Assembly (NCBI GenBank): GCA_002189035.1
Contig: NEEC01000008.1
Coordinates: 3,162,001-3,226,000 of the forward strand
DNA length: 64,000 bases
Direction of reading: 5' to 3'
Origin: Utricularia gibba
Lineage: Eukaryota > Streptophyta > Magnoliopsida > Lamiales > Lentibulariaceae
A program made the translations under genes and the position numbers. Below are positions 25,232 to 26,081 of the stretch, piece after piece; position 1 is the first letter of the stretch, and each line of letters begins with the position of its first letter. Below the pieces are notes generated by a model. The model did not search any database. It was not told the origin of the DNA and was given only the letters and a program-made list of their open reading frames with translations.

Positions 25232-26081
25232 CTACATGACACGTCCATTTTCCATGCTTTCTGGGAAGAAACACAGAGTTTTCGGCACCGTCCTCCTCGG
25301 AGCCGCCTCCCGGAGTCTTCTCCCGGCGGTCTCCCGCTGGCAGTTGAAGAAGACGGCCGCCACCGGGAGACCCAGGTCGTTGTCGGCGGCGAAGCGGCGC
25401 GTGCAGAACCCGTCCCTAGAAACCGGTATGCTTTTCACCGACTGCCGGGCCCTCTGCCTGAACAAAATGAATACGAACCGGTGTATCCCTATCGCCGGCT
25501 TAGGCTTCTCGTAGCCCACCATCGTCTTCCCTGCAAAACTAGTTCTAATTTTACACCTGAAAAGCGCAAATTCACACCATGTCATGTGACTCACCAAATG
25601 TAGCATTTGTTGTCCCTGGAATGTCGGTCACTAACCTGAAACGCCATTAGCATTCAGTAGGAAAGAAACAAAACAAAAAAAAAACAAACATATGAGAAGT
25701 TAGGGTTTCTTTCTCAAGCATCACACCAATGGAGTTTCTCCCTGAGATAAGGGTCACTTGGGCCAGGAACATCTGGATCTAACATGACCTAACATCACAG
25801 TACAAAGAAAAACAAACCCAAATTCAAACATGAAAAACCAAGAAGAATAAAAGATAAAAAAAAAAAAAATTCTATGTCATATGAGTTACTAAGGTGTAGA
25901 AGGTTCTCATGTCGCCGGCGTCGATCTCCACACGGGGGCGATGCCCAACTTCGGCAGGACGGAACTCCGAGCAGTTGACAACGTGCCTGTTGGAGTAGGA
26001 AATGTAGATTTTGCAAGTGGGGGTGAAGGAGTCCAGAACATCTCCCACAACCCTGCTGATCACAAGAGAGTCATAAGACAT
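25232..26081 (-). CDS. PEBP-family protein, TFL1/CEN/BFT clade, divergent
   Basis: Member of the FT/TFL1 family, which controls flowering time and meristem fate by binding FD and 14-3-3 proteins. Four exons, 25890-26081, 25727-25788, 25595-25635 and 25232-25530. The inner exons are 62 and 41 bases, exactly the ancestral FT/TFL1 sizes. The predicted protein is 197 residues, longer than the usual 170-180. The PEBP anion-binding motifs are kept: [12 protein letters not shown] and [12 protein letters not shown]. Exon 4 has Asp in SRDGF, as in TFL1-like repressors, and [17 protein letters not shown] as in CEN. The switch position (Tyr in FT, His in TFL1) is Lys 82 here (REKLHW). After RETAGRRL there are about 26 extra residues where relatives stop. 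The first exon (residues 24-60) is also unusually diverged. Floral repressor versus altered function cannot be decided. Confidence 0.88.

Follow-up and report, generated by a model that had tools for sequence, protein, structure and literature searches.

A TFL1-subfamily PEBP gene of Utricularia gibba carries lysine at the FT/TFL1 switch position

In a window of 64,000 nucleotides from Utricularia gibba (contig NEEC01000008.1), we identified an intact PEBP gene of the TFL1 subfamily (TFL1/CEN/BFT), which is the antiflorigen class; its placement among TFL1, CEN, and BFT is tentative. The encoded protein has lysine (Lys82) at the switch position, which is Tyr85 in FT and His88 in TFL1. We consider it probable that the gene encodes a working TFL1-class antiflorigen, in which Lys82 may take the place of His88 in a charged contact with an aspartate.

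The gene lies on the minus strand at positions 26081 to 25232 of the window and encodes 197 amino acids in four exons, with all introns GT-AG. Exon 1 (25890 to 26081; 192 nt) runs from the ATG at 26081 to a GT donor and encodes the N-terminal PEBP segment, which aligns with FT, TFL1, and CEN (query residues 1 to 65 matched). Exon 2 (25727 to 25788; 62 nt), bounded by an AG acceptor and a GT donor, and exon 3 (25595 to 25635; 41 nt) equal in length the corresponding exons of a CEN-like gene of this genome, on C505. Exon 4 (25232 to 25530) encodes segment B, including Asp138 (SRDGF), and a C-terminal tail, and ends in the stop codon. When reverse-complemented, positions 25735 to 25737 read AAA, which is codon 82 of the spliced gene, with the frame intact. 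In an alignment with the PDB sequences of FT, TFL1, CEN, and Hd3a, Lys82 pairs with FT Tyr85 and TFL1 His88, with no nearby gaps, and Asp138 pairs with TFL1 Asp144 and FT Gln140. The codon and the alignment thus bear out the preliminary description, which had reported lysine at the switch position together with a retained, TFL1-like aspartate in segment B.

Could the lysine codon be a base-calling or assembly error? Long-read errors are mainly indels, and in this genome the MFT-like copy and one FT-like copy have frame breaks beside homopolymers, as residual long-read indels would give. However, reaching AAA from CAY or TAY takes two or more base substitutions, and the reading frame is undisturbed on either side of the codon. 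A typical long-read indel therefore does not account for AAA, and we regard an error at this codon as very improbable.

The C-terminal tail (25232 to 25310, minus strand) continues for ~26 residues past the usual RETA-RR end of the family, which reads RETAGRR in this protein; the tail of the C505 gene is shorter. We considered a frameshift as the origin of the tail and rejected it: the remaining two frames lack an early stop as well. Only ~615 bases downstream of the PEBP stop codon (25232), on the same strand, is the start of another gene (24617). The first exon of this neighbor is present, and the gene is consistent with FACE2.

Assignment to the plant PEBP family and to its TFL1-like subfamily is based on several features. 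The protein matches the Pfam PBP domain (PF01161) with 41.3 bits, compared to a curated cutoff of 24, and its translation contains the DPDxP and GxHR motifs as DPDVP and GIHR. The arrangement of four exons, with 62 and 41 nt for exons 2 and 3, is that of the FT/TFL1 family. The top PDB matches were TFL1 (1wko; 5.1e-70) and CEN (1qou; 5.1e-69), with FT (6igg; 7.2e-59) behind them; Hd3a was also matched. In a tree of few references (four PDB sequences, for FT, Hd3a, TFL1, and CEN), the window protein and the C505 gene clustered with TFL1 and CEN and not with FT (support, 91/92), and the grouping was the same once a single row for Arabidopsis BFT (AtBFT) was added (94/94), a row that serves as a lead rather than a test. 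The acidic residue that marks the TFL1-like subfamily at the TFL1 Asp144 site is present as Asp138. Canonical TFL1/CEN proteins have His at TFL1 His88; since Lys82 replaces it here, we filed the gene under the TFL1-like subfamily rather than as a canonical His88/Asp144 TFL1. Where FT-like proteins have Tyr85, Gln140, and a conserved segment B (LGRQTVYAPGWRQN), the window protein has Lys82, Asp138, and a different segment B. It also lacks the Trp found at the switch position of MFT-like proteins, including the MFT-like protein of this genome. The tree grouping with TFL1/CEN and the retained Asp agree with the earlier description of the gene as a TFL1-type PEBP.

We searched the genome (516 contigs, 100.1 Mb) at the protein level and read the gene models by hand. 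Besides the window gene, the search returned eight plant-type PEBP genes through matches to their exons; C3:833696 matched the Pfam model only and was left out of the switch-residue comparison. Apart from the window gene, the TFL1 class has a single member in this genome, the C505 gene, and its switch residue is His. The MFT-like gene (C414 at 0.80 Mb) has Trp, and the FT-like copies have Tyr: one each on C317, C304, and C451 (at 2.65 Mb), a pair on C4, and a second, broken copy on C451 (at 4.26 Mb). An alignment with the PEBP proteins of the species had been proposed as a check of the lysine; among the plant-type PEBPs compared in the genome, only the window gene has Lys at this position, and the others have the expected His, Tyr, or Trp. 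No relatives of the window gene were found in viral and prokaryote contigs, as expected for a plant gene.

The FT-like and MFT-like copies showed further peculiarities. Two related FT-like genes, C4:2512622-2513390 (minus strand) and C4:2532399-2533172 (plus strand), lie ~20 kb apart on opposite strands (L012, L015, L016, and L017). Both have DADxP rather than DPDxP, FFGKR in segment B, and Trp or Phe at the 14-3-3 contact Arg130, and with 16 to 17 of 81 invariant sites changed, the pair is more divergent than the window gene. The FT-like copy at C451:4261790-4262546 (L018 and L013) is probably a pseudogene: its exon 1 is interrupted by an in-frame TGA, and the start of its exon 4 is disturbed. 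Frames break beside homopolymer runs in the FT-like C451:2652311-2653137 (L006 and L008) and in the MFT-like C414:802556-803063 (L002); these copies may be pseudogenes or may contain residual sequencing indels. The FT-like copy at C304:459884-460638 (L019 and L009) carries His where FT has Gln140, its segment B reads PPEWRHYF, and its activity may differ from that of FT.

We next consider how well the window protein is conserved outside the switch position. It keeps the pocket residues D71, D73, H87, H118, and R119 (FT numbering) and also R62, P94, F101, and R130 (FT numbering), which are the 14-3-3 contacts known from the Hd3a structure. Among the 81 sites that are invariant in the four references, 9 are changed in the window protein and 10 in the C505 gene, which has His. 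At sites common to TFL1 and CEN, the window protein differs at 28 of 121 and the C505 gene at 27 of 121. Both genes thus change often at such shared sites, which makes a departure at any single chosen site less remarkable than it first looks. Six of 11 sites that discriminate FT from TFL1 carry neither residue in the window protein. G40C and N143C (FT numbering) and the ~26-residue tail are further departures; they indicate some loosening in a gene that otherwise looks functional.

Published TFL1-like proteins from eggplant, mango, and Perilla have His at the switch position, but there are exceptions. A charged hydrogen bond between His88 and Asp144 of TFL1 has been proposed to determine TFL1 activity, and the equivalent of this bond in BFT is Tyr85-Glu141 (PMC4813128). 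AtBFT, with Tyr85 and Glu141, is a repressor (PMC4813128, PMC12073138, PMC4033272). The kiwifruit AcBFT genes delay bolting in Arabidopsis (PMC9616528), and AcBFT1, like AcCEN3, deviates from the His/Asp pair (PMC5441913). Soybean FTs that repress retain Tyr85, at a position that lies where the ligand pocket opens (PMC8107440). The AtBFT, AcBFT, and soybean FT cases show that activity does not hinge on the switch residue alone. A search of the text of papers returned no PEBP with Lys at the switch site.

Under the reading that we favor, the window protein would probably enter the 14-3-3/FD complex through its conserved contacts, like TFL1, and would compete with FT as TFL1 does. At the pocket rim, Lys82 stands in place of His88. 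With its acidic partner retained as Asp138 (Asp144 in TFL1), Lys82 may form an equivalent charged contact, and this contact may keep the protein repressor-like. Lys opposite the retained Asp would be conservative in charge, because a charged hydrogen bond with Asp144 is described for His88 itself (PMC4813128), and it offers the simplest route to preserving a TFL1-like rim, which is why we expect a working protein of the antiflorigen class. The idea of a Lys82-Asp138 bridge is weakened by a molecular dynamics (MD) study of an ancestral TFL1, in which His88 made no contact with its neighbors (PMC9556947).

The main rival reading is a hypomorphic gene, or one heading to loss, in which Lys82 reduces or removes antiflorigen activity. 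In its favor, His is retained by TFL1-like proteins in most of the species surveyed, other conserved sites of the window protein are altered (G40C and N143C) and a tail is added, and several PEBP copies in the genome have broken frames. However, the window gene itself has an intact frame and splice sites, its pocket and 14-3-3 contacts are preserved, its divergence does not exceed that of the CEN-like paralogue, and in a pairwise comparison with the C505 gene dN/dS is well below 1 (dN, 0.39; dS, 1.86); dS is near saturation, and the ratio takes in older history. We therefore judge reduced activity to be possible but unlikely.

The preliminary description had suggested that a charged residue at the pocket edge could abolish ligand access or give a new specificity. 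This suggestion is not supported: the pocket, the 14-3-3 contacts, and Asp138 are intact, the divergence matches that of the CEN-like gene that kept His, and the switch position alone was not decisive in the published cases. That Lys82 confers a new ligand or partner specificity is improbable; the site is at the ligand-pocket entrance (PMC8107440) and the residue is neither Tyr, His, nor Trp, but nothing else points to a new function, the anion-pocket residues are unaltered, and other substitutions at the site have no known new specificity. Likewise improbable is an adaptive change of ligand or partner choice, with Lys as a fourth switch state beside Tyr, His, and Trp, perhaps tied to the odd shoot architecture of bladderworts. 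An FT-like activator, for which the absence of His88 and the FT-like Tyr65 and Leu89 (FT numbering) could be cited, is very unlikely, because segment B departs from that of FT (Ser at W138 and at Y134, and Asp at Q140 and at N152) and the tree clusters the protein with TFL1/CEN.

The Lys82 gene offers a natural way to probe how strictly the Tyr/His switch holds. If the Lys version still represses, a charge pair with the acidic segment-B residue, and not histidine itself, would be what matters; otherwise, Lys82 is a minor sequence variant.

Compared with TFL1 of Arabidopsis (1wko) and CENTRORADIALIS of Antirrhinum (1qou), the window protein is 63 to 64% identical over 167 to 169 positions. Like both, it keeps the pocket, the 14-3-3 contacts, the segment-B Asp, and the GPSDPY/GPSDPF stretch; unlike both, it has Lys for His88, the C-terminal tail, G40C, and N143C. 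The CEN-like gene at C505:2704801-2705514 resembles the window gene in being TFL1-class and in its exon 2 and 3 lengths, segment-B Asp, and comparable count of departures, whereas it retains His, is 54% identical to the window protein, and occupies a separate locus. We asked whether it lies in a duplicated copy of the window region; none of three window neighbors searched for has a copy beside it, so a regional duplication is not supported. Like AtBFT (PMC4813128), the window protein is TFL1-like without His88 and retains the acidic partner (Glu141 in AtBFT and Asp138 here). In contrast, AtBFT has Tyr at the switch site, and in our small tree the window protein is nearer to TFL1/CEN.
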